Below are positions 1-49,401 of a stretch of DNA of 64,000 nucleotides, piece by piece (within the stretch, counting starts at the first letter, position 1; each line of letters opens with the position of its first letter). The DNA lies in IMG/VR virus record IMGVR_UViG_3300048921_000363, positions 1 through 64,000 of that record; one strand, 5' to 3'. The stretch is from a virus. Below the pieces are notes generated by a model that saw only the letters and a program-made list of their open reading frames with translations, had not been told where the DNA came from and made no database searches. Made by a program: the position numbers and the translations under genes.

Positions 1-41
1 GGTTTCTGGTGGGTTGGGTGTTGGTTTGAACATGGATGAAA

Positions 42-253
42 CTCCTAACACTTTGAGTGAAGGCTTCACCCTTTCGCTACCAAACGAAGGGTGGCGGCCA
101 TGAACAGGTTGGTAGACCGGGTGTTAGGAGCCGGCGCGCCCGAAGACGCCCTGTACATGACCACCATAGACCCCGATCGAAAGCACGACCGGAGACAATG
201 ACGCTGTACATCTAACACGCGGGCTACCAAACCCGATCACTGGTTTTCAGTGA
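42..253 (+). ncRNA. Candidate structured RNA or repeat element
   Basis: No ORF explains this stretch, but it is rich in perfect inverted repeats. A 10-bp pair (42-51 with 121-130) encloses a 7-bp hairpin (67-73 with 87-93) whose loop holds CTACCAAA. TTGGTAG at 109-115 can pair with that loop, giving a pseudoknot or alternative fold. A second hairpin (220-223 with 232-235) presents the same CTACCAAA loop. It is followed by a 6-bp hairpin (237-242 with 248-253). From memory, similar sequences recur near small DUF3077/DUF6124-type genes in Pseudomonas; this is not checked. A C4-type antisense RNA is an alternative. Strand is a guess. Confidence 0.4.
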
Positions 254-660
254 CCCGAGAACGATAAAAGCCACGGACTAGACGCACAAGCCGGCGAATT
301 CTGTCTTAGGTGTAGGGGGTGGCGCAAGGATGTGTAGGCCTCGAGCATCGTTGGCAAATCGGGTTTAAACACGACGAATTTTGTTGTTTATCCGCTCTGT
401 AATCAAATGGATTAGGGGGGCACCGGCCGGTGAATACTAAAAAAACAAATAAATATATCTGCCCCCTATTGTCCCTATTGCCCAAAAGGAATTTAAAGGA
501 AATCATCGCATACTACTGCGACAATAAAACCGAGCAAAGAAAATGGTTACCGCCGGAGATCAAAGCAATCTGCGGCGGTTGCGGTCGTTGTATGCATCAG
601 AGACGACTGTGAAACGAGCAGTAGATCGTGAGTAAAAAAAGAAACTCCATGCAATAAAAA
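254..660. other. Gene-poor stretch, no convincing gene
   Basis: No feature stands out. Short ORFs on both strands lack a ribosome binding site and any recognisable family. The second half is AT-rich like the adjoining defence-type genes. Confidence 0.5.
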
Positions 661-1503
661 CTAGCGAATCAAGCTAAGCATTTCTGAAGCTCTATCAGCG
701 ATCAACACTAAAATACGTTCCATTGCCACCGTACTCTGAAGCTCTTTAACCCCCTTAAACTCTTTTACTGACCAAGCCAGAACCTCAACAAAATCATGCC
801 CTCTAATATAGCTTCTTGGATCACCATTCAAACATGCAAACCATTTATCGAAATACTCGACAAAGGTCTCACTCTCTCTTGCCCTATTATTACTTTCCAA
901 TAAACGCCTAATAAATACGAGATGATCGAATTTTACTTTGCCAGCTGCTACCGACAATTGCTTCATCGGATCCAGCCACTCCACCGACCACTCTAACTCC
1001 TTATCAGCTAGCCTAAGGGCATACATAGCCTTGAGCACTTCAACAACAGAAGACACATACAAGTCAAAATCAACAATTTTTGCTTTTGACGCCTTTATTA
1101 AGATGTGCCTAAGAATATCGTGAGTAAAAAAATACAGCTCTATAGATACGTGATCTGTCCAGACCAGCCGAGGAACGTTATCAAGCTCAGACAACCAGTG
1201 ATCAAGGTCTCTGTCTACAACACAACGATAAGAGAGGTCCCCTTCAAGAGATGATAACTTTTTCGCGAGCGCTATAACTCGCTGCTTGTTCCCCGTCGTC
1301 AGATCATACTCCGCAAGCACTTCCCTGGACACGTCAATCGAATCGATATCATATATCACCTCATCACAACTACCTTCAGCCTCCAAGCATACAGAGAACA
1401 ACTCCTTATCAAAGAGACCTTCCACATAAACATCCTGAAGCCCCGGTTCATTTTCATACCGAGCCAACAGCTCATCAATACTGCGGCGTGGAATATTAGC
1501 CAT
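661..1503 (-). CDS. DUF4435 (TOPRIM-like) protein, AriB-like partner of ATPase
   Basis: This 280-residue protein has the features of the DUF4435 family: an early VEGxxDxxxF stretch (residues about 27-36, YVEGLFDKELF) and an acidic VDRDLD motif near residue 95. Both are typical of TOPRIM/OLD-type folds that bind metal. It overlaps the end of the upstream AAA ATPase gene by 8 bp, so the two are translationally coupled. An ATPase followed by a DUF4435 protein is the layout of the PARIS anti-phage system (AriA-AriB), where AriB is the toxic effector released when AriA senses a phage anti-restriction protein. The pairing here is inferred from order and motifs. Other ATPase-DUF4435 systems exist, so PARIS proper is not proven. 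Confidence 0.7.
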   Translation of the reverse strand: MANIPRRSIDELLARYENEPGLQDVYVEGLFDKELFSVCLEAEGSCDEVIYDIDSIDVSREVLAEYDLTTGNKQRVIALAKKLSSLEGDLSYRCVVDRDLDHWLSELDNVPRLVWTDHVSIELYFFTHDILRHILIKASKAKIVDFDLYVSSVVEVLKAMYALRLADKELEWSVEWLDPMKQLSVAAGKVKFDHLVFIRRLLESNNRARESETFVEYFDKWFACLNGDPRSYIRGHDFVEVLAWSVKEFKGVKELQSTVAMERILVLIADRASEMLSLIR

Positions 1504-2935
1504 GACTATTTACCAATCTGACCACACGATCCCTGTGCTGAGACAACAACTCCATCGAGTGCGAAGCAAATACAAATTGGATGTTTGAACCAACGGTAAT
1601 ATCGAGCAACGACTTAACAAGCTTTCTTTGCCACTTTACGTTAAGCGAAATCTCCGGTTCATCAATCATAAATACGCAAGGGCGATCTCTCCCAGTTAAC
1701 ACATAACAAAAAAGCAACAAAAGTTGTTGTTCACCAGAAGATAGGTGCCCAGGATCAAGCGGTTGCCCACGTGTACTGGCGATGCTAAAACCTTGACTAA
1801 CCTTGTAGGATATTTCTTTATCCGACAAGAAGCCATTAACGATTTTTATAAACCTATCAAGTACATTATAAATAGGATTAACTGCATCAATGCGCCCAAT
1901 TAAACTATCTACATAAGGAGCAAGGAGACCTGCCGCTAACTCTCGCTTCGCCCTTGAGCGATCGCTAAGCGGTTTCTTCAATTCTGATATCGAAAGGGGA
2001 GAGGCTAGCTCATAAACTGCTAATTCCGCCGTTTTAGCCTCGATTTCAACCAGTAGTCGTAAAAGATCATCAGTATCAACGATCTTTTCTTCTGCGTCCT
2101 TATTCGCAGGAGAAACCAGGTGCTTTAAAACATTCACATAGACAGTATGTACATTTTCCGTACCTTGATTTGCACTATGCACCGCTTTTGCGGATATCCA
2201 TTTACCTGCTGAACTCAATGCTTGAGATAGGGCAATCTGCCTAGACCTAACGACTAGGTCATTAATCCTTTTAGGCTCTTCATATCTCATCACTTTGCGA
2301 ATTTCAACTTCATCACTAGGATCGGATACCAGATCGCAATCCAAGCGTCTATCTGCGTTAAGGATAAACATAGTCGGTGCGACTTTTTTAAGAACCTCTA
2401 AATAAGTCGCCTCCCCGACCTTTGTATCGCCCAATATAAACTGCTTAGACTTGCTGTTTGCACCTATCACATCTTTCGGGCGTGAAACCAAGTGAATTGT
2501 GCCGTCTTTGGCTCGCCTAAAATATTGCATATCATGGGAATAATACATCTCCGATTCACGAATCCGCCCCTTTGGAATAAAATCCCATTCTACTATTGTC
2601 TTTTTTTTCTGCTTGATACTCAGAATTAAGCTTCTTTCAACATCCTCCCCTAATTCTAAATCCTCAACCGGTGATCGCCTCGCCGAAAGAATAATCCCGC
2701 TACTTAGCCTAACTTCCAAGCTTTCAAATGGTGCATCGAACAATGCATTTCTGTGCCCTCTATTCTCAGCTGCTGACAACAAGTGAAAAGCTAAACGCAA
2801 AATGGTACTTTTCCCAACACCATTATCGCCATACAAGATCGCAGCATTGCTAAGCGCACCTTCTTCTGGCAGCCGGTAGGTATACATACCAAATAGCTTT
2901 TCAACTACTATCTCGGAAATCAAAGGCGTATTCAT
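1496..2935 (-). CDS. AAA/ABC-type ATPase, AriA-like
   Basis: A 479-residue SMC/OLD-like ATPase. The Walker A motif (YGDNGVGKST) lies near the N terminus. An ABC signature (LSSGEQQLLL) and Walker B (VFMIDEPEISL) lie in the last quarter, followed by a FASHS H-loop. I start at the ATG at 2935, which has GGAG 6 nt upstream, rather than at an in-frame codon 39 bp earlier. The architecture fits AAA_15/AAA_21 ATPases such as AriA, which forms an assembly that holds AriB. The gene is AT-rich compared with the prophage genes to the right. It follows the sce7725 gene after about 120 bp and may share its transcript. Confidence 0.75.
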   Translation of the reverse strand: MNTPLISEIVVEKLFGMYTYRLPEEGALSNAAILYGDNGVGKSTILRLAFHLLSAAENRGHRNALFDAPFESLEVRLSSGIILSARRSPVEDLELGEDVERSLILSIKQKKKTIVEWDFIPKGRIRESEMYYSHDMQYFRRAKDGTIHLVSRPKDVIGANSKSKQFILGDTKVGEATYLEVLKKVAPTMFILNADRRLDCDLVSDPSDEVEIRKVMRYEEPKRINDLVVRSRQIALSQALSSAGKWISAKAVHSANQGTENVHTVYVNVLKHLVSPANKDAEEKIVDTDDLLRLLVEIEAKTAELAVYELASPLSISELKKPLSDRSRAKRELAAGLLAPYVDSLIGRIDAVNPIYNVLDRFIKIVNGFLSDKEISYKVSQGFSIASTRGQPLDPGHLSSGEQQLLLLFCYVLTGRDRPCVFMIDEPEISLNVKWQRKLVKSLLDITVGSNIQFVFASHSMELLSQHRDRVVRLVNSHG

Positions 2936-3052
2936 ACATCTCCATGAAATTGCGAAAAAACGGGACAGATTCATTTATCGCAAATAATGATAAATAAATT
3001 TTCCCCACTTTCTATTTAGAAATGGCATACGAGTGCATGCACTCACAAAAAA

Positions 3053-3982
3053 TCACCAACCTGACAGGGTTTGAATATGATGTTTAATTGATATTTTCTT
3101 CACAACCCCAAGCCCTGGATAATGGCGCGTCCCATAGAGGGTAATGAAATCTTGCAACCCCGCTGTATTAACGAAATTCGTAGGATTAGCTGTGACATGA
3201 GCAATCAGCAAATCTAATGCTTCACGAAACTTACCACCAGGGTCACTCTGGCTGTCATTATCAGAGTACGACGAAAAATGGCGGACATACATTTGTTTCA
3301 TTCTAGAAGGATCCAGATAAGACAAATGCAAGGTAACGACAAATGCTGGACCACCACCTTCCGAAAAGCGCTCTCCAAGAATCGTATAGTCACCGAAACC
3401 GATAGCATTCGGACGCAATCTATATTGGACGTGACAGTTAGAATAAAATGACTCCGCGCCATAGTCTAAATTTCTTGCTTTCTTGTCGAAACCATCATGA
3501 AAAAGAACTACGGCAGGAAGACTCCCCCAAACCGAATGGTCAGTTTTATCCGGATTCAGTGCCACAACAGAGGCTCGCATTAAATCCAGAGTAAGAGCTG
3601 GAGTAATGATACCTTCAACGTAAGCGACGAAAGGGGTAGTCAAATTTCTTAATAACGCTATAGCCGATACGTCAGTTGAATCGCGCACTTTTACACATGG
3701 GACGAATGCGCCAGTGCCATTACCAACTGTTGCGAGGTGTGCGATTAGCGACGCTGTGATATTCGATCCCGATACGCTCGAAAACTCGCCTTGAGATGGA
3801 TTAATTACCACCCACGAAGTTATGCCTGCAGCTGTTAATTCAGAGATAGTTATCGCTAGAGGGCCGAGACTTAAATTAACCGGCTCCAAAATTGGACACA
3901 CAGCACCCACGGGTATATGCCCAACAAGTTCCTTCAGCGCGGCTAGTTCAAATTGTTTGCCCTTGAGAATTGGGTAGTACAT
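3053..3982 (-). CDS. sce7725 family protein (Beta-protein-like)
   Basis: This 309-residue protein opens with MYYPILKGKQFELAALKEL and has PILEPV near residue 30, the recognisable start of the sce7725 family. That family resembles the Beta protein of phage P4 (part of the gop-beta-cII module), a barrel-like protein of unknown biochemistry. The start ATG has AAGGAAG upstream. It overlaps the end of the sce7726 gene by 40 bp, and the two families are typically found as a pair. The exact activity is unknown. Company with a PARIS-like pair suggests phage defence; that is inference. Confidence 0.75.
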   Translation of the reverse strand: MYYPILKGKQFELAALKELVGHIPVGAVCPILEPVNLSLGPLAITISELTAAGITSWVVINPSQGEFSSVSGSNITASLIAHLATVGNGTGAFVPCVKVRDSTDVSAIALLRNLTTPFVAYVEGIITPALTLDLMRASVVALNPDKTDHSVWGSLPAVVLFHDGFDKKARNLDYGAESFYSNCHVQYRLRPNAIGFGDYTILGERFSEGGGPAFVVTLHLSYLDPSRMKQMYVRHFSSYSDNDSQSDPGGKFREALDLLIAHVTANPTNFVNTAGLQDFITLYGTRHYPGLGVVKKISIKHHIQTLSGW

Positions 3983-4875
3983 ACAGCTTCCTTACTCAGA
4001 ATGGAACTCATGTTTTCCACAAGACAGACTCGAGCCTTTCGAGTCAAACCAGACTCAACGCCGGCCACGAATAAAGAAGTGGGCAAGGACAATATAAAAT
4101 CCTTATCCAAAGCTCTCGTGCGCCTAATCACTTTTCTAAATTCCGTACGAACCCTCTCATTGGTCGCAGAAGCCAACAACCGTTCACACTCACGGAAAAT
4201 CTCAGTATTACTTACATCGGGCGCAACACCAAACAAAGACTCGACAAGGCTCACATATTCTTTACGTCGAAGGGAGCGCATCAAAACCCCAATATCAATC
4301 GGCCCATTTATAAGCTGCGCTGACCTCACCTCTCGAAAAGACCCTCTCTTATTCAGAAGTATCACTCCGACTGCCTCTGGAACGGCATGAAAGACCGCAT
4401 TTAGATATTTTTCAGAAACAACCACATTAACCTTATCAAAGATCTTCAGATACGAATCAACCTGAGATCTCAGCCGCCCTAGATTATCGTAGTCAGTTTT
4501 AATTTCGTAACATGTTGAAATACCATTAACGATCACACAGTCCGCTTTACTTGCACCAACTCGAAACTCAGTAAACATTGTGGAACTACTAACCGAGTGC
4601 CTACCAACGAGAATTTTTTTTGCGATAGCATTCTTATAGTAGTACTCATTACGATACTTCTTACACAATAAGCTGTAGCAAAAATCAAAAACACTGCCTA
4701 CGGTGAAAACATCATCAAAGCTGTCTTGATAGCACTTAGCCACTTGAGTGACAAGAGAAAAATCGCCTTCCGAAACCGAGTTAATGTGGTGACTAGAAAA
4801 AATTTTAGCTATCTCTTTGAAACCCAACATATTTTTAATCCGATTAACGATGTCATCGTTAGTAAAAAACTTCAA
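3943..4875 (-). CDS. sce7726 family protein, possible nuclease fold
   Basis: About 310 residues. The middle contains FRVGASKADCVIVNG then CYEIKTDYDNLGRLRSQVDSY, an arrangement (acidic residue, then ExK in a beta strand followed by a helix) typical of PD-(D/E)XK nuclease-like folds and of sce7726 proteins. It is the first gene of the four-gene minus-strand cassette and overlaps sce7725. The longest ORF uses a TTG start with no strong ribosome binding site. Its 5' end abuts a decayed integrase only 12 bp away, so the true start or promoter may have been altered. Function is unknown; nuclease activity is an inference from the motif. Confidence 0.7.
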   Translation of the reverse strand: MKFFTNDDIVNRIKNMLGFKEIAKIFSSHHINSVSEGDFSLVTQVAKCYQDSFDDVFTVGSVFDFCYSLLCKKYRNEYYYKNAIAKKILVGRHSVSSSTMFTEFRVGASKADCVIVNGISTCYEIKTDYDNLGRLRSQVDSYLKIFDKVNVVVSEKYLNAVFHAVPEAVGVILLNKRGSFREVRSAQLINGPIDIGVLMRSLRRKEYVSLVESLFGVAPDVSNTEIFRECERLLASATNERVRTEFRKVIRRTRALDKDFILSLPTSLFVAGVESGLTRKARVCLVENMSSILSKEAVCTTQFSRANNLN

Positions 4876-4886
4876 AACTTACCAGT

Positions 4887-5262
4887 CAGATGCTGACGAC
4901 CAGCGTACCCATCTCTGCGTCCACGAAGGTGCGTATAGCTTCACATTAAGTTCCAGTCGCTCCCCCAGAGGCTGCTACACGAGGAATATCCCACCCATTT
5001 CAAACGTCCGATCATCCCCGGCGTGCCGAAGCTCATGAAAATGAAGATCAACCATTCCTAAAATCTGCATGCTCGCGTAAGGGAAGATGAAATTGAGCGC
5101 GCATTGTAGGGAAAAATCACTCCAACATCTCGTGGGTGTTCCCAGCACAATAGACCACGCTTCGTTCGGCGAAAATGACAACAGGCGTCATTTCCGATTT
5201 TTTGTCCAGGATTCTTCGTATCTCTGACGAGCATAGCTTGGAGAAATGGGGCCTGAGTTACT
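4887..5262 (-). pseudogene. Decayed dusA-type tyrosine integrase (C-terminal remnant)
   Basis: Short stretches in different minus-strand frames match the C-terminal half of the intact integrase at 48079-49197, in order: LVRDTKNPGQKIGND (intact: LVRDMKNPGQKIGND), IFPYNARSIS, LTRAC, LHFHELRH, then FEM. Frameshifts, an in-frame stop and loss of the rest destroy the gene. The catalytic HxLRH block is still readable. It sits beside the dusA fragment at 5382, as the intact integrase does at the other junction. It is therefore probably the dead integrase of element A, leaving that element unable to excise by itself. Confidence 0.8.
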
Positions 5263-5381
5263 GGTAGCACCCTTTTAACAAGCTGCATTCCCGTCAGCAC
5301 ACCACTCATAGCCCCCAAGCCCCACCTCCCCATTCCTGATAAACTCCCCCACCTCCCAGCCACACCGATTCCGTACCCCCA

Positions 5382-6130: not shown

Positions 6131-7525
6131 TCACGACAATGGCGTCTTCGGCTCGTCACTATCCAATTCATCATCTGTAACATCTAGGCTCGGTGGTAAA
6201 TTTGTGTTCATTGGTTTGTTGGAGTTGTGTTGATTCAAATCTGACTGTGATGCAGAGCGACTTGAAGTGGGAGCGCGAAGGTCGTCAAATTGTTGCGCAT
6301 CTTTCTGCTTGACAGCTTCATCAGAAGTGGATTCGCGCTCAGGCACACTTCTTGAAAGTTTGTGCTGTAGAAATCTTTTGTGATACGAGGAATAACTATT
6401 GTTGTGTGTGTTAATCTTGGCTGTGGGAAAAGCACTATTAACGGAAGATTTTTGATTTGAGTTGACCTCATACGAACGCGCAGTTTTCCTGATCATTTGA
6501 AGAATCTTATCCCTCAGTTCGTCAGTATAGTCCGATGAAGGGCTATCTTGATCGTTATCATCCTCTTCTTCAATTGTATGCTCGCTTTTTTCGTACGCGT
6601 CGCTAATCGAACTATCTAAAATTTCGGCATTGAGAAATAGTTTGCCATCCCTAAGAAAGTCCGAAGTACTATACATGTGAAATAATTCGATATTAGACAT
6701 GCGACAAATTTCGCTTTTTAAACTTTCATGAGGACCAATTATCTTCTCGCCAGCGGAATCAATAATGCTCCACCAGTCTTTTTTTGCGTCATCGGTGATA
6801 AAGATTACACGTTTGACTTCCACTGATGCAGCTTTAGATAGTAGCTGTTTCCAGATAATTAGGTCACCGAATGCTCGCTCATATTTCAACTGGCCATGCG
6901 TGAACGTAGGAGCTTCCTTTTCGCTATCTCCTTTAGTTCTATCCTCAAAGCCTGGAGGAGTTTTTTCTGCGTAACGAACTTTACCTTCTTCGTAAAGATT
7001 GTCTAGCCATTCTTGGTTTTCTGGAGGCGAACCAATTCGGTCATGAGTGAGCTCATCCAAACTTTCCAAGATGTTATCGTTAGAGCGTACGTCCGCTTGT
7101 TTTATGTCCCAAGGCGAAATTTTATTTTTTGTAGTATCTATATGTAACTTGATATTGGCAGCAAGCTCTTGGAGGTGGTTATTTATTTCGGGGAATTTTT
7201 TTGAAAGCCCTAGCTTGTTTAGTTCGCTATTGATGGAGGTGTTGATTTTATCTAAGAATGCATTGATATCACGGAATACCTTTTTCTCATTCTTAATGAC
7301 TTTTAATCGGTTCCTATGATACTCAAGGCCTACATGGTGCGGAATCCAAATCTTTTCTTTTAGCTTGAGTGCTGTGTTAAAGAAATCTATTCGAGTTTGA
7401 TCTTCATAGCCGTAAAGGTTAAGAAAGACATTGGTGTCAAATACAAAGATAGTATTGGAGGACGACCAGGCGCTTTTGAGGGAGTCAGTACTGGGTACTA
7501 AAAAACTTTCGAATATTTTTTTCAA
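6131..7525 (-). CDS. PIN-domain protein (PIN_8-like)
   Basis: 464 residues. The N terminus has FVFDTNVFLNLYGYEDQTRIDFF and then WIPHHVGLEYHRNR, the signature of PIN_8-type ribonuclease domains: first acidic residue in FDTN, a second near the conserved E of LEYH. VIFITDDAKKDWW (about residue 250) supplies the later acidic residues. The last 150 residues are low-complexity, rich in Ser, Asp, Asn and Gln, and probably disordered. The start is TTG, with GGTGA 4 nt upstream. The gene follows a Cas2-like gene by 80 bp on the same strand. RNA cleavage as defence or toxin is inferred. Confidence 0.7.
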   Translation of the reverse strand: MKKIFESFLVPSTDSLKSAWSSSNTIFVFDTNVFLNLYGYEDQTRIDFFNTALKLKEKIWIPHHVGLEYHRNRLKVIKNEKKVFRDINAFLDKINTSINSELNKLGLSKKFPEINNHLQELAANIKLHIDTTKNKISPWDIKQADVRSNDNILESLDELTHDRIGSPPENQEWLDNLYEEGKVRYAEKTPPGFEDRTKGDSEKEAPTFTHGQLKYERAFGDLIIWKQLLSKAASVEVKRVIFITDDAKKDWWSIIDSAGEKIIGPHESLKSEICRMSNIELFHMYSTSDFLRDGKLFLNAEILDSSISDAYEKSEHTIEEEDDNDQDSPSSDYTDELRDKILQMIRKTARSYEVNSNQKSSVNSAFPTAKINTHNNSYSSYHKRFLQHKLSRSVPERESTSDEAVKQKDAQQFDDLRAPTSSRSASQSDLNQHNSNKPMNTNLPPSLDVTDDELDSDEPKTPLS

Positions 7526-8795: not shown

Positions 8796-11045
8796 ATGTC
8801 TGCTACATGGAAGAACTTAGAAGAATACGTTCGCGCGATTGCCTCCTTAAAGTGGGGGGCACCTTGCAAAGCAGAGCATATTGACGGGGTTGATTTTGAC
8901 AGTGTTATTCGGATTTCCGATGATGAAGTTATCATCATAGAAGTCACTACTGAAAGAACCCTTCAGAAGGTGCGTGATGACCTCAACAAGATAAAACCTA
9001 CGAAAATCAGGCTCGCGGTTGAGGGTATAATCTGCCGAGCTTACATCATATTAGAAGGTGAGCCTACCCTTAGTATGATTGAAGCCGGCAAAAGCAGCCA
9101 TATAAAGGTGTGTTCGGCCGATGAGTTTAGTAAAGATTTTTTTGATTTCGCTTCCTACGACACTTTGCGAAAAAGATCGCCTTTTGGAAGTGCGGTAGAT
9201 TCCAAAACAGGTGCAAATGATCCTCGCGAATTCATTCATGTTCGTTACTCTGAAATAGATGGCTCAAAAAAATACACGGTAGAAAATATTGCCGCATGTT
9301 TGCAGCGTGGTCAAAACATTGTACTTACCGGAGATTATGGGACTGGTAAAAGCCGGTGTGTACGTGAGGTGTATGAGTTACTTAGAAATCAAACAAGAGA
9401 ATCAGGCGCTTACCCGCTGGCAATAAACCTACGAGATCACTGGAGCAGTTCAAGCGCGTTAGAAGTTATAGCAGGACACCTCGGTATTATCGGCATCGGC
9501 AGTTCTATAGACAATGTTATTCGACTCCTCAACTCTGGAAAACTCATCCTCCTGTTGGACGGGTTTGACGAGATCGGTACTCAAGTTCATGACGCGAGAG
9601 TCGAAGACAGAAAAAGCCTTCGACGAAGAGCAGTACAAGGCGTTCGCGACTTAATTACTCGTGGAAAAACGGGGATACTAATAACCGGTCGATCTCATTT
9701 TTTCGATAGTAGCGAGGAAATGCTAGAAAGCCTTGGTTTATCCGATGGGTCTAATACGGAGTGCATTGAGGCACCGGAAGAGTTCTCAGAAGATGAAGGG
9801 AATAAATACCTACACGCAATCGGCATTAAGTCCCTTGTGCCTGAGTGGTTACCGCGGAAGCCATTAGTTTTCCAGCTCCTCGTTGAACTAGACCCAGCAG
9901 ACGTTAGCGTTATTTTAAATCGCCAGCATGGTGAGTACGAATTCTGGGGCACCTTTATTCACGCAGTATGTAGACGTGAGTCTAGCGGAGTGGGCGGTTC
10001 GATTGCCCCTCAAACCATTCACGCGATTCTTCACAGATTAGCGTCCGTTACCCGCTACTCCGTCACAGCCAATGGCCGTCTTTCCCCCAGTGATATTGAT
10101 ACAGCATACCAAGCGGTAGTAGGATCAGTTCCAGACCAAAGTGGTCGCCAACTTCTTTCAAGAATGTGTACTCTCGGCAGGATAGAACCAGAGTCTCCTG
10201 ACCGACATTTTCTTGATCTTAATGTTCTTGACATCCTTCGTGCGGAAGCGCTTGTAGTAGACGTTATTAACATGAAGGACATACACGATCAAGTTCAATG
10301 GTGCCAATCACTCCGCCACCTTGGGGCATTTCATGCCGCACAAACAATTAAAGTCTTCGACTTGGAGCAACATTGTTTTTCTTATATAAGGAAAAATGGT
10401 AATAGCCGAAACACAAAAAAGCTTGGCGAGATAGTTTCAATTCTAACAATTTTTGGTGGAGATCCATTAGACTTTCAGTCTCTCCAGCTGTCTGGCTCAG
10501 TTTTCCCAGTGTTAAACTTTAGTGCTCGAATAATAAAAAACTTGGTGATCAAGGACTCCGAAATTGAACATTTATTTCTTGGGGCAACACCAATAACAGT
10601 ACAAGATGGCGTGGTGATTGATGGGTGCATCGTTTCACACGCACTTGGGGTTTCAGATTCACAAGGCCTCCCTGCCTGGGTTACAAATACTGAGGCCTTT
10701 AACTATGAGCGAATTTCCAATGCTTCAAGAATCAAAGAGAGCGTTCTACCTCCAGCACAAAAATTGTTTCTTTCTATAATTCATAAGATTTTTTTCCAGC
10801 CTGGTGGTGGAAGAGAAGAAGCATCACTATTAAAGGGTGGTTACGGCCAAAAATTCAGCCCAAAACTAGTGGACTCTATTATCAAAATGCTTTTGCGAGA
10901 GGGCCTTATAGACAGGGCAAAGGGAGATGACGGCTGGGTATATAAACCTATTCGTAGGTATACAGACCGAATGAATAAAATTCGCTCTGAGCTGACTCTT
11001 TCCGAAGACCCGATCTGGAAAGAAGCGTCTACCCTAAAGCAATAA
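8796..11045 (+). CDS. NACHT-type STAND NTPase with N-terminal nuclease-like domain
   Basis: 749 residues. The first 120 contain GVDFDSVIRIS then EVIIIEVTTERTLQKVRDDL, which resembles the D...ExT core of Mrr/PD-(D/E)XK-like domains. A NACHT domain follows: Walker A GDYGTGKSR near residue 185, Walker B LLLDGFDEIG near residue 255, and ILITGRSHF as the sensor strand. The C-terminal third holds no obvious repeats and ends with a winged-helix-like region (SPKLVDSIIKMLLREGLID). An in-frame TGA just upstream fixes the ATG start. Bacterial NACHT proteins are anti-phage sensors in which nucleotide-driven assembly switches on the effector. Here the effector would be the nuclease domain, by inference. 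Confidence 0.75.
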   Translation: MSATWKNLEEYVRAIASLKWGAPCKAEHIDGVDFDSVIRISDDEVIIIEVTTERTLQKVRDDLNKIKPTKIRLAVEGIICRAYIILEGEPTLSMIEAGKSSHIKVCSADEFSKDFFDFASYDTLRKRSPFGSAVDSKTGANDPREFIHVRYSEIDGSKKYTVENIAACLQRGQNIVLTGDYGTGKSRCVREVYELLRNQTRESGAYPLAINLRDHWSSSSALEVIAGHLGIIGIGSSIDNVIRLLNSGKLILLLDGFDEIGTQVHDARVEDRKSLRRRAVQGVRDLITRGKTGILITGRSHFFDSSEEMLESLGLSDGSNTECIEAPEEFSEDEGNKYLHAIGIKSLVPEWLPRKPLVFQLLVELDPADVSVILNRQHGEYEFWGTFIHAVCRRESSGVGGSIAPQTIHAILHRLASVTRYSVTANGRLSPSDIDTAYQAVVGSVPDQSGRQLLSRMCTLGRIEPESPDRHFLDLNVLDILRAEALVVDVINMKDIHDQVQWCQSLRHLGAFHAAQTIKVFDLEQHCFSYIRKNGNSRNTKKLGEIVSILTIFGGDPLDFQSLQLSGSVFPVLNFSARIIKNLVIKDSEIEHLFLGATPITVQDGVVIDGCIVSHALGVSDSQGLPAWVTNTEAFNYERISNASRIKESVLPPAQKLFLSIIHKIFFQPGGGREEASLLKGGYGQKFSPKLVDSIIKMLLREGLIDRAKGDDGWVYKPIRRYTDRMNKIRSELTLSEDPIWKEASTLKQ

Positions 11046-17390: not shown

Positions 17391-19835
17391 TTACACATCC
17401 GGTTGGTCGTACAGTTGGCGGTTCTGCAGCTGCTGTGTGGCCTGCTGCATTTGCTGCGCGATGAAGGGCTGCAGCTCCCGCGCCATCTGCGCCGGATCCT
17501 TGGCATCGCCCTGCACGGTGATGTGTAGCGGTGCCGAGATCTCGACCCGTTGTTCCATCTTCGGCGCCTCAGATCTGGCGACAGGCGTTGGTGCGGCCAG
17601 CAGTGCCGGCGGAACCGGGGCACTGGCGGGCGCCGCCAACGACCGGGCTACATCGCCCATCGCTGCAGGAGCCAATGGACCAGAGGCTGGCTTGGGCTCG
17701 AAAGACTTGGCAATGTCGCCCATCACCGGCGGCAGGTTTTTTCCAGCGTTGGCCATCATCAAGGGGCCTGCGTCCGGAACGCGCTTGAGCGACTCGTCGG
17801 TGCCGAACAATTTTTTGCCCAAAAACCCGCCGGCCGCATCGCCTCCCATATAACCGATATACCCTCCAATCGCTCCACCGACGATGTTGCCAATGATCGG
17901 TACCGCCGTGCCGATAGCAGCCCCGGCAGCCGCACCGGCCAAAGTGCCCGCTAGACTGCCGGCCGCTTGCCCGTAGCCTTCAGCCTTTTCGTCCTGAGTC
18001 TCGGCATTCTGGTAGGTGTCGTAGGCCTTGAAACCGGCGTCGATGGCCGCGAAGATCACCGGACCTTTCATGCCTTCGGTGATTTGGCCACCCCGCCCAC
18101 CACCTCTACTGCCGCCACCCTTACCACCTTTGCTCTTCTTGCCCTCCCCGCCGTTCATATCGCCGACATCCAGCCCACCCCCAGCCCCTGGCAGGTTGGT
18201 GACGATCACCTTTTGCGGAATATTCGGGTTGCCCATCAAGGTGCCACGCCCAAGGTTCATCAGGCCCTTTCCGACCTTGAACGCGCTGACGGCGCCCTTC
18301 AACGCCACCAGTCCAGCGACGGCCGTACCAATGCCCAGCGTGACCCGTGGAAACTCATCGGCAAAAACCGACAGCTTGCGGCTGACGTTGTTGATGCCGT
18401 CGGCCACGGCGTCGGTGACCGGTCGGATCGCATCGCCGATACTGCGCATGGCGTCGTCCATGGACTGGGCCATCTCGGACCACTTCTGCGCAGACGTCTG
18501 CCGGCGTTCAGCCAAGTTCTTGTCGAGGATCCCGGTGGCTCCGGCCGAGTCCTTTTTCAGCTGGTTGTACAGATCCTTGTTCTGCATGTACGCGGTCAAG
18601 GCTGCTTTCACCTGCATGTCAGCGAACAGGTCACCGGTGCGCAAAGCCTCCTCCAGCGACTTCATCATGGCCTTGGCTTTCTCGGGATCGGCCTCTTTGC
18701 TGATCGCCGCCGTGGCCTTGGCCATCTCGGCGGCTCGCTTCGGATCGGTGGCTTGGATGTATTTCTGGGCCAGGGCGAAACTGGACTCCAATGTCGACAT
18801 GCCGTTTTGCAAGCCCGTCTGCATCGACCCCTTGTAGTCGATACCGGCCTTTTTGTAGGCCTCGACCGTCTCGCCGGACCCGATTTTTTCCATCCAGTTT
18901 TTGAGGTTGTTCGCGGCTTCGTCCGAACCGCCGGCGGTCTTCATCTGCACCTGAAGCATCGCGCCGAGCTGCGTTACCGAGTCCATGCCGGTGATGCCCA
19001 ACTTGCCCATGCCGGCCAGCAGCTCAGGGAACCACTTGGCCATGTCGACCGCTTCGAAGCTACCTGCCTGGCCCTGATAGGCGATGGCTTCCAACGCCTT
19101 TTCCATTACCTTGGGATCAGTGATCTTGGCGTTCTGTCCCAGGGCGTTGATCATCTTGGCCGTTTCGGTGCCTTCCGATCCTTGGCCGATGGCAAACTTT
19201 GCCGCCGTCGGGGCATAAGCCAGCGCCTTGTCCAGTTCCATGCCGGCACCAACCAGGGCGTTGACCACCTCGGCCACCTGATTGCGTGCCATGCCGGTAT
19301 CGCGCGACGTGTCGATCACCGTCTTGGACAACTGCGCTTCTTCCGGTGAGTTGGCAATGTTGGCCTTGATCGCGATGTCACGAATGATCGCGCCGTAATC
19401 GGCACTGACCTTGGTCGGAATGGCTGCGGCGGCGGTCAGCGCACCGGCCTGACCGAGGGTGCTTTTCAGACCAGACCGACCTTCCTCGATCTGTCGATGC
19501 CCGAGTGCTTTGAGTTCGGCACCGGCGGCCACGCGGCCCATGGTGGCGTAAGCTTTGCTCAATCGCCCCACCTCGACGCCCTGTTTCTTCAGCAGTTCGA
19601 GGTTCTTTTCGTATTTGCTCAGCAGCTTGTCTGCACCTGCGGCACCGGTCATGTGCGCCTTGCGCCATTCATCACGCAAACGCATGGTGTCGCCGATGGT
19701 GTTCTGCAGGACTCGGGCTTTATTGCCCACCGAGTCCAGATGTTTGACCTTGCTTTCGACGTCCTTGAACGCTTTGCCTACCGTCGGATCGACGGCGCCG
19801 CCAATGACAAAGCCGAGCGCGAGGTTCTTCGCCAT
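17391..19835 (-). CDS. Tail tape measure protein
   Basis: About 814 residues, which would set tail length. It begins AKNLALGFVIGGAVDPTVGKAF, has long helical stretches, then a Gly-rich hydrophobic segment (AGSLAGTLAGAAAGAAIGTAV, about residues 630-650) resembling the membrane-active part of tape measures. Its C-terminal part is Pro/Ala-rich. I use the ATG at 19835 because AAGG sits about 7 nt before it. It follows gpE/E', its expected chaperone. Confidence 0.9.
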   Translation of the reverse strand: MAKNLALGFVIGGAVDPTVGKAFKDVESKVKHLDSVGNKARVLQNTIGDTMRLRDEWRKAHMTGAAGADKLLSKYEKNLELLKKQGVEVGRLSKAYATMGRVAAGAELKALGHRQIEEGRSGLKSTLGQAGALTAAAAIPTKVSADYGAIIRDIAIKANIANSPEEAQLSKTVIDTSRDTGMARNQVAEVVNALVGAGMELDKALAYAPTAAKFAIGQGSEGTETAKMINALGQNAKITDPKVMEKALEAIAYQGQAGSFEAVDMAKWFPELLAGMGKLGITGMDSVTQLGAMLQVQMKTAGGSDEAANNLKNWMEKIGSGETVEAYKKAGIDYKGSMQTGLQNGMSTLESSFALAQKYIQATDPKRAAEMAKATAAISKEADPEKAKAMMKSLEEALRTGDLFADMQVKAALTAYMQNKDLYNQLKKDSAGATGILDKNLAERRQTSAQKWSEMAQSMDDAMRSIGDAIRPVTDAVADGINNVSRKLSVFADEFPRVTLGIGTAVAGLVALKGAVSAFKVGKGLMNLGRGTLMGNPNIPQKVIVTNLPGAGGGLDVGDMNGGEGKKSKGGKGGGSRGGGRGGQITEGMKGPVIFAAIDAGFKAYDTYQNAETQDEKAEGYGQAAGSLAGTLAGAAAGAAIGTAVPIIGNIVGGAIGGYIGYMGGDAAGGFLGKKLFGTDESLKRVPDAGPLMMANAGKNLPPVMGDIAKSFEPKPASGPLAPAAMGDVARSLAAPASAPVPPALLAAPTPVARSEAPKMEQRVEISAPLHITVQGDAKDPAQMARELQPFIAQQMQQATQQLQNRQLYDQPDV

Positions 19836-48078: not shown

Positions 48079-49197
48079 CTAAGTGCCATCACCTATCAAT
48101 TCCCTAAATTCATTTAACCTCAGCATCCACAACCAGCCACTATACCGATCTCCTCGCCCGCGGAGATGCGTATACCTCCGCAGCGAGTTCCAGTCCCGGT
48201 GTCCTGAGACACTAGACACTCTAGGAATGTCCCAGTCCATTTCGAAAAGCCGGCTAACCCCCTCGTGTCTAAGGTCATGGAAGTGTAAATCCTCAATACC
48301 AAGCATCGGGCACGCCCGCGTGAAAGCAGCCGAAACCGACCTAGCGTTGTAAGGGAAGATCTCCCGCTCGACCTTGGGCATGCTCTGCAGAATGGCCCAA
48401 GCCTCATCAGGCAGATAACACCACACATCATTACCAATCTTTTGCCCGGGGTTCTTCATATCGCGCACCAGGACCGACTGCCGAGACTCATCGAGATCAT
48501 CCCAACGGATACGCGTAATTTCCTCCTGTCGGCGCGTCGAAAAAAGCGCAAAGGCGATCACCTTCGGCATGTCGATCTGAGCTTTACGACGTTCCTGCAT
48601 TTCGAAGAAATGCGCCATGAGCTTGTCCAGCTCATCAAGCGTCGGCCGGCGATTACGCTCTCTGCTCTTGCTCACCATACCTAGCTTGCGCAACACCTTC
48701 CTGGCATCAGACATGGCCAGCGGATCCACCTCATAGCCCCAAGCTGGACGCGCCACAGACAACACCGCCCCCAAGTGTGAGAGATCATTTCCGACCGTTT
48801 GCGCCTGAACGCCGCCGCCCTCTTTACTCATCCGCCATTGTGCGAACTCCACCAGCTTCTGGCTGGTCAGAGCCGAGTCCTCAAGGTCGCCCAGCCAAGT
48901 ATGCTTGATCGCTTTCAAGGTGGCGTTCTTGGTCTTGCCCAGCGGCCGGATTTTCTCGTACTCGTCCAGGTACTGCTCGATCATCTTCCTGATCGTCACA
49001 CCCTTACGGTTTGCGCGCTCAATCGCACCAGGCTCAGCCAGCTCCGTCTCACGCCGTTTGATCCAAGCCTGGGCGACCTGCTTTCGGTCGAAGGTTTGGC
49101 TTTCCTGATAAACTGAGCGCCCGTCCCGATTGATCCGTATCTGCGCTGTGTAGGCCGTAGAGTTGTCCTTGCGCTTGCGTGATGTGATCGTGCCCAT
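48079..49197 (-). CDS. int: Tyrosine integrase, dusA-targeting type
   Basis: 372 residues. Arg in STRRQEEITRIRW, the HDLRHEGVSRLFE box and GHRDWNSLRRYTHL with the nucleophilic Tyr form the catalytic set. The N-terminal part holds an arm-binding domain. The gene is beside the dusA fragment and divergent from it, as in dusA-associated islands. The decayed copy at 4887-5262 is its homologue. It would catalyse integration and excision of element B at the PMMDW codons of dusA. Confidence 0.95.
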   Translation of the reverse strand: MGTITSRKRKDNSTAYTAQIRINRDGRSVYQESQTFDRKQVAQAWIKRRETELAEPGAIERANRKGVTIRKMIEQYLDEYEKIRPLGKTKNATLKAIKHTWLGDLEDSALTSQKLVEFAQWRMSKEGGGVQAQTVGNDLSHLGAVLSVARPAWGYEVDPLAMSDARKVLRKLGMVSKSRERNRRPTLDELDKLMAHFFEMQERRKAQIDMPKVIAFALFSTRRQEEITRIRWDDLDESRQSVLVRDMKNPGQKIGNDVWCYLPDEAWAILQSMPKVEREIFPYNARSVSAAFTRACPMLGIEDLHFHDLRHEGVSRLFEMDWDIPRVSSVSGHRDWNSLRRYTHLRGRGDRYSGWLWMLRLNEFRELIGDGT

Positions 49198-49299
49198 TTC
49201 CAGTTGCTACATTGCCGAATTCGCTTGCTACATTGTAGCAACCGACTTCAGAAAACAAGGGAAAATGGGTAAAAACCGCTGTATAAAAGATCAGTATTA

Positions 49300-49401
49300 A
49301 TGAATTTCGAAAAACCTGAAGCGCCCGCAAATACTAGCCCTGCCCGTTCCGAGCCGTCTCGCCGCTTCAGTGTGGCCCCGATGATGGATTGGCACGGCTA
49401 A
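49300..49401 (+). pseudogene. dusA: Displaced dusA N-terminal fragment (junction of elements B and C)
   Basis: An ATG opens a 33-residue frame, MNFEKPEAPANTSPARSEP followed by SRRFSVAPMMDW, then HG and a stop. The SRRFSVAPMMDW part is the DusA N terminus. No continuation of dusA follows, so another element must be inserted here. The first 20 residues differ from the copy at 5382, consistent with each element bringing its own 5' end. Confidence 0.85.
49378..49392 (+). repeat. Attachment-site core, right copy
   Basis: Identical to 5436-5450 over 15 bp and in the same reading frame of dusA. It marks the boundary between elements B and C. Confidence 0.8.

Follow-up and report, generated by a model that had tools for sequence, protein, structure and literature searches.

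A probable C4 antisense RNA cassette ahead of a DUF6124 gene in a viral contig, and its relatives in Pseudomonas

The first few hundred nucleotides of the window, i.e. the whole 64-kb stretch of the virus record that was analysed, very probably make up, on the minus strand, a C4 antisense cassette that is complete and acts in cis: a promoter, an a1/b1 leader, the C4 RNA and the a2/b2 target sites precede a DUF6124 gene, whose small protein the cassette would silence. Only two Rfam matches in the whole window exceed their gathering score: the C4 antisense RNA (RF01695) at 171-87 (-), full length, with 74.3 bits (gathering 45, E 1.2e-12), and the c4-a1b1 target (RF03163) at 267-216 (-), with 48.3 bits (gathering 46.7). 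The element is a member of a family that is already known, since the order and spacing of the cassette equal those of c4-icd in phage P1. The identity of the C4 and the order of the parts are shown here, and complementarity within a locus is retained across many loci.

Layout and folding of the cassette

The features of the cassette, all on the minus strand, are the following.

298-327 (-): conserved block TTGCGC...CAGAAT, possible second (upstream) promoter
261-289 (-): promoter-like TTGTGC-N17-TATCGT, putative
216-267 (-): a1/b1 leader, c4-a1b1 (RF03163)
224-231 (-): target site a1 (TTTGGTAG), complementary to a'; the second loop of the earlier note
212-218 (-): target site b1 (GTGTTAG), complementary to part of b'
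87-171 (-): C4 antisense RNA (RF01695); predicted mature form 165-90, with ends placed after the P1 annotation
121-130 (-): C4 loop b' (CTCCTAACAC), unpaired in the fold of 165-90
109-115 (-): a' (CTACCAA), a single-stranded segment of C4 that has no pairs in the fold of 165-90
77-84 (-): target site a2 (TTTGGTAG), complementary to a', a hairpin loop in the fold of 89-34; the first loop of the earlier note
42-51 (-): target site b2 (GTGTTAGGAG), the 10-nt complement of b', over a Shine-Dalgarno-like AGGAG, ending 8 nt before the ATG at 33-31
1-33 (-): 5' end of the ORF (11 codons), DUF6124 as judged by relatives, cut by the contig end

In other words, a1/b1 lie upstream of C4 and a2/b2 downstream, with b2 over the ribosome-binding site. 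When the flanks were shuffled (mononucleotide shuffles), none of 20000 contained exact complements of a' both upstream and downstream together with a downstream complement of b'.

The earlier note had read this region on the plus strand, as one RNA whose two identical loops compete for the same partner, and had proposed a regulatory or antisense RNA to be compared with Rfam C4. That comparison was decisive, and the antisense reading stands. The elements it pointed to are in the sequence as well: CTACCAAA occurs twice, the copy at 77-84 belonging to a hairpin of about 7 bp and that at 224-231 to one of 4 bp (CGGG/CCCG), and TTGGTAG at 109-115 (+) is the complement of the C4 segment a'. The strand, on the other hand, has to be reversed. 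We reject a plus-strand switch because the minus strand carries the ORF as well as the two Rfam matches; with the minus strand as the functional one, the plus-strand loops are the complements of target sites. They correspond to two separate targets of an RNA that, by analogy with P1, would be processed out. As for the supposed 10-bp closing pair, CTCCTAACAC at 42-51 (+), the complement of b2, is complementary to GTGTTAGGAG at 121-130 (+), the complement of b', but this is the pairing of an antisense RNA with its target and not a stem. An additional partial copy, CTAACAC at 212-218 (+), was missing from that list. The remark that nothing coding explains the region does not hold, as the element is the leader of the minus-strand ORF starting at 33.

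The predicted mature C4 (165-90, minus strand) folds at -38.5 kcal/mol (z -4.50) into a long outer stem with two inner hairpins, the C4 architecture, with b' in a loop and a' single-stranded; all ten b' bases and seven a' bases are unpaired. On the same strand the a1-bearing stretch folds with a z-score of -3.06 and the a2/b2-bearing stretch with -3.23, while the plus-strand stretch 42-253 has a z-score of -2.82. We aligned 74 of 77 loci (alignment A2; L225, L229 and L233 were left out), i.e. 73 C4s of two Pseudomonas genomes and that of the window. Compensatory changes are found in 15 of the 21 consensus pairs of C4, and a covariance model built from the same sequences detects c4 of P1 at 55.2 bits. 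Homologues with compensating changes, which the earlier note had asked for, thus exist both inside C4 and between C4 and its targets.

Upstream, TTGnnn-N17-TAnnnT is present in 60 of 77 stretches, where 1.9 would be expected, and the second block, TTGCG-N19-CAGAAT, in 44 of the 77 loci. The window has both (289-261 and 327-298). These promoter-like sites came from the comparison of loci; a generic promoter scan gave no promoter in the window. The two putative promoters recall the tandem promoters of P1.

We propose that the leader would be transcribed from the minus-strand promoter through a1/b1, C4 and a2/b2 into DUF6124, and that the C4 portion would then be excised from it, as is done by RNase P in P1. 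The freed C4 would expose b' and a'. The former would pair with b2, which covers the ribosome-binding site, the latter with a2; C4 would also pair with a1/b1 upstream in the same mRNA. As a result, the DUF6124 small protein would stay untranslated. Both the processing of C4 and the translational block are expected here by analogy with P1/P7. According to excerpts of PMC5320573, RNase P processes C4-like RNAs at GGW, a' confers target specificity and b' partly occludes ribosome-binding sites. The GGT at the predicted mature 5' end (165) of the window C4 agrees with the GGW motif given in these excerpts.

DUF6124 and other products behind C4

The ORF of the window runs off the contig after 11 codons. 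Completing it from the other end of the record failed, as there is no terminal repeat and that end holds an integrase next to a Dus-family gene (PF01207). The ORF is lengthened to MFKPTPNPPETDPVSPYKFPD (21 codons) in L040, a contig that overlaps the window by 7409 nt with 100% identity. Full ORFs of 119 aa follow the leaders of L038 (290 nt, 97% identical to that of the window, 281/290) and L047 (96% identical over 339 nt), and also that of L049, whose leader is just 75% identical to the one of L038. The proteins of L038, L047 and L049 match Pfam DUF6124 (PF19619) at 64.7-64.8 bits (cut-off 27), and therefore the ORF of the window, with its 11 codons, is assigned through these relatives as a probable DUF6124 gene.

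The predicted structure of DUF6124 has three helices, a helical hairpin with an N-terminal helix (mean pLDDT 78.7, pTM 0.51). Neither PDB nor BFVD gave a match to this fold at E <= 0.001, and the best match of the sequence to PDB had an E-value of 0.14; with such uninformative matches the fold gives no function. PADLOC (L008) and NCBIfam and PHROGs (L008, L005) gave no annotation either, and no paper on DUF6124 was found in the open-access literature searched. The protein alignment (A1) holds 48 proteins, L033 and 47 from the 68 loci found by protein similarity. Of the others, L111 was excluded because of an in-frame stop and L124 unnecessarily, and the remainder were either partial matches or not selected. 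In one place, G044:C1:4202483-4202683, the same sequence matches both DUF6124 and DUF3077, which suggests that the two families are related.

Within the genus Pseudomonas, 79 genomes centred on G003 were searched, scoring 47 C4 candidates per genome at most, so that high counts may be too low. A C4 match is present in 73 of them, in 72 above the cut-off. Over the 79 genomes the median is 13 and the maximum at least 47 per genome; 46 of the 79 have 10 or more. DUF6124 is present in 60 of the 79 genomes, never without C4, and C4 occurs without DUF6124 in 13. The two counts correlate with a Spearman coefficient of 0.885. The class draw comprised 185 genomes including G003, with up to 22 C4 candidates per genome scored and stricter filters: C4 was found in 6 of the 184 other Gammaproteobacteria (1-3 matches each) and DUF6124 in none. 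The 14 control genomes had neither.

The coupling is close in the two genomes analysed locus by locus, G044 with 41 and G018 with 36 C4 matches, each on one contig of 6.5 Mb. A same-strand DUF6124 follows within 1 kb downstream in 33/41 and 27/36 cases (60/77), compared with 0.24% for random placement, and in 57 of these 60 pairs the gap between C4 and the DUF6124 domain is 180-230 nt. For the other 17 of the 77 matches no DUF6124 lies within 1 kb downstream. By coordinate comparison, five of the seven DUF3077 matches in the two genomes lie within 1 kb behind such C4s; 65 of the 77 C4 matches thus precede either DUF6124 or DUF3077. Conversely, DUF6124 matches without a C4 number 5/38 and 2/29 (7/67). 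Starting from protein similarity, a C4 above the cut-off was found just upstream of 62 of 68 DUF6124 genes on genome contigs. Among the stretches of phages, plasmids and viral contigs, 48 out of 49 are matched by the C4 model R1, and the sole miss, L039, begins at the ATG. For five of these stretches (L005-L009), resemblance to the C4 stretch had been the search criterion; the remaining 44, with 43 matches, came from the protein or a start-codon pattern. A loose pattern scan of viral contigs gave 26 stretches. On one plasmid (L009) C4 is followed by an ORF that does not resemble DUF6124 over its length. DUF6124 is the usual product of C4 cassettes in Pseudomonas.

Other products occur. Behind the 16 full C4s without DUF6124 the ORFs include DUF3077 proteins (L183, L186, L203), a Bro-N antirepressor-like protein (L195) and proteins with no Pfam match. 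Of the eight C4 loci of other Gammaproteobacteria, the ORFs of all but L257 were compared with Pfam: one is Bro-N (L261) and one SymE (L262), and the five others had no match above the cut-off. In L262 (1501-1835) a C4 with matching a2/b2 stands directly before the SymE-family toxin ORF. The C4s ahead of Bro-N antirepressor-like ORFs in L195 and L261 are near the classic use in phages. Antirepressors and a SymE-type toxin among the products of C4 are the sole clue to the role of DUF6124 and no more than hint at it; it is our conjecture that DUF6124 is a product that the cell must normally keep off, either a growth inhibitor or an antirepressor.

A different view of the same layout is that of a classic prophage immunity operon, where DUF6124 would be a mere icd-like leader ORF enabling an antirepressor further downstream and C4 would quiet the prophage. 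P1 has its immunity region laid out in this way, Bro-N antirepressor-like ORFs do occur behind C4 (L195, L261), and the virus record to which the window belongs has at its far end an integrase and a Dus-family gene. We still regard this as unlikely, given that there are dozens of cassettes per Pseudomonas genome, that neither an ORF nor an annotation of an antirepressor comes directly after DUF6124 in the four plasmid regions read, and that 11 of 57 DUF6124 ORFs have an intrinsic terminator-like site behind them.

Complementarity within and between loci

We compared the longest Watson-Crick runs between C4 segments and flanking stretches in a set of 77 loci, consisting of 76 full C4s and the window. 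A 45-nt partial C4 below the cut-off (L254) was dropped from the run, seed, energy and promoter counts, and L220, without an ORF row, from the seed count. Downstream, b' has a mean run of 7.40 nt with its own stretch vs 4.76 nt with other loci, and a' 7.04 vs 4.33. Upstream, the corresponding values are 6.52 vs 4.82 for b' and 7.01 vs 4.49 for a'. In all four tests the observed mean was reached in 0 of 5000 permutations, with common descent not corrected for. With segments taken at fixed offsets, and so including a few stem bases, the 76 ORF-bearing loci have 70 different b' and 35 different a' sequences. Runs of at least 6 nt are present at a2 in 75/76 and at b2 in 61/76 loci, and in these 61 the b2 run ends at a median of 8 nt before the start codon. 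In raw counts for the eight C4 loci of six other gammaproteobacterial genomes, each C4 has a downstream complement of at least 7 nt before the ORF, and in six of them both a2 and b2 reach at least 6 nt.

The energies of the duplexes (a plus b) give a less clear-cut picture of specificity. For 30/41 and 21/35 C4s in the two genomes, their own target is the best one, while the own C4 ranks first for only 17/41 and 12/35 targets; margins have a median of about 1 kcal/mol. As the own partner is often not the energetically best and margins are small, some of the C4s are predicted to engage in cross-talk, and the orthogonality of the cassettes would be incomplete.

This predicted cross-talk is one reason to consider that the main targets of C4 are reached in trans, at other places in the genome, while the sites beside it serve autoregulation. 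The C4 of P1 is summarised in PMC12197685 and PMC8546580, and the passages of PMC8546580 that treat it call it trans-acting. Furthermore, three of the six C4-less DUF6124 loci in genomes (L139, L140, L146) retain an a1/b1 element above the cut-off, and could be orphan targets of a trans-acting C4. Nevertheless, the complementarity within a locus far exceeds that with other loci, and b2 is located at the ribosome-binding site of its own ORF. We consider a mainly trans-acting role improbable.

It is also very improbable that the cassette of the window is an inert relic of a phage immunity region, with an inherited structure whose use has been lost. Its position at the contig edge next to variable cargo would fit such a relic, but none of its stems is broken, its two seeds, b1/b2 and start codon are intact too, and the compensatory changes in C4, together with seeds that match in locus after locus, suggest that selection has continued.

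L038 and L049 encode identical proteins of 119 aa (CDS alike at 349/357 nt) behind leaders that are 75% identical (212/281) and differ in b'/b2. Tentatively, and with more doubt than belief, we suggest that the phage C4 immunity switch has been turned, throughout the genus Pseudomonas, into dozens of cassettes that silence themselves largely independently of each other, in which barcode pairs (b'/b2 with a'/a1/a2) guard DUF6124 or DUF3077 proteins that are harmful or antirepressor-like once released. The barcodes would turn over fast and be exchangeable as a block with no change in the protein, as in L038 and L049, and the set might provide innate heteroimmunity or sensing toward mobile elements. 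If this is true, the cassettes would respond to mobile elements carrying matching or mismatching barcodes. In any case, the 36-41 C4 matches per genome in the two genomes form a natural set of antisense pairs on which to study how RNA-RNA specificity evolves and is kept apart.

Known systems and surroundings

The closest known system is the c4-icd-ant (immI) operon of phages P1/P7. According to its record, P1 has tandem sigma-70 promoters, a1, b1, C4 (77 nt), a2, b2 and icd, in the same order as in the window. The distance from b2 to the ORF start is 8 nt in the window and 10 nt in P1, and the predicted mature C4 has 76 nt compared with the 77 annotated in P1. The products differ: in P1 it is Icd and in the window DUF6124 (by relatives), and P1 Icd has no detectable similarity to the DUF6124 profile, so that what lies downstream of C4 here is, as judged by relatives, not icd. 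The seeds differ as well, and Pseudomonas genomes have many copies. P1 also has ant in the operon; the contig of the window stops 11 codons into its first ORF.

Both motifs, C4 and c4-a1b1, are listed by Weinberg et al. 2010 (PMC2864571). In the excerpts of PMC5320573, Group 1 C4-like sRNAs of Acinetobacter baumannii AB5075 are highly expressed, apparently processed and variable in a', and Pseudomonadales are quoted among the predicted hosts of C4-like RNAs. Judging from these excerpts, A. baumannii AB5075 (Group 1) and Pseudomonas share the presence of many C4-like RNAs per genome. The same excerpts leave the targets of the A. baumannii sRNAs open, whereas most C4s analysed here match cis sites before a defined small-protein family; thus cis targets and a protein family are now given to this RNA class, and DUF6124, widespread in Pseudomonas, is tied to a known silencing mechanism. 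We found no description of the expansion of C4 in Pseudomonas or of its link to DUF6124 in open-access titles and abstract openings. C4 and its targets are known; within that scope, the Pseudomonas set of C4-DUF6124 cassettes would be a new form of the C4 system.

Two further systems resemble the cassette in part. The a1/b1 leader of the window resembles isrK (RF01394) of Salmonella Gifsy-1 at 26.2 bits, below the gathering score of 50, and no antQ/anrP context is seen with it. The a1/b1 leaders of L137, L138 and L145 exceed the isrK gathering score, linking isrK to the target leaders of C4. The SymE/SymR type I toxin-antitoxin system likewise has a small ORF beside an antisense RNA, and the C4 of L262 precedes a SymE-family ORF. 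SymR lies opposite symE, unlike C4, which is a structured RNA upstream on the same strand as the ORF.

The cassette (1-338), common to relatives, is separated by variable cargo (339-5310) from a shared block that starts at about 5312. Only about 0.2 kb separates the two blocks in L037 and L048, and the cassette therefore seems to border an insertion hotspot. The cargo includes a minus-strand pair (661-2974) of AriB-like (661-1503) and AriA-like (1496-2974) genes according to PADLOC, which we take to resemble the PARIS defence system; its ATPase also matches the PtuA and AbiLi models. PADLOC also reports a cll-like protein at 3943-4875. Further on, a PIN_8 protein (6131-7525, -) and a NACHT-domain NTPase (8796-11045, +) are defence-like candidates with no PADLOC match. 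The window at 48137-49392 and L003 at 18287-19751 are alike: over 1 kb the window shares 69% identity with the L003 integrase gene. Behind this comes a 40-nt sequence like the one next to the L003 integrase, the latter sequence lying within the 5' end of a Dus-family gene. The two regions possibly belong to tandem elements using the same site.
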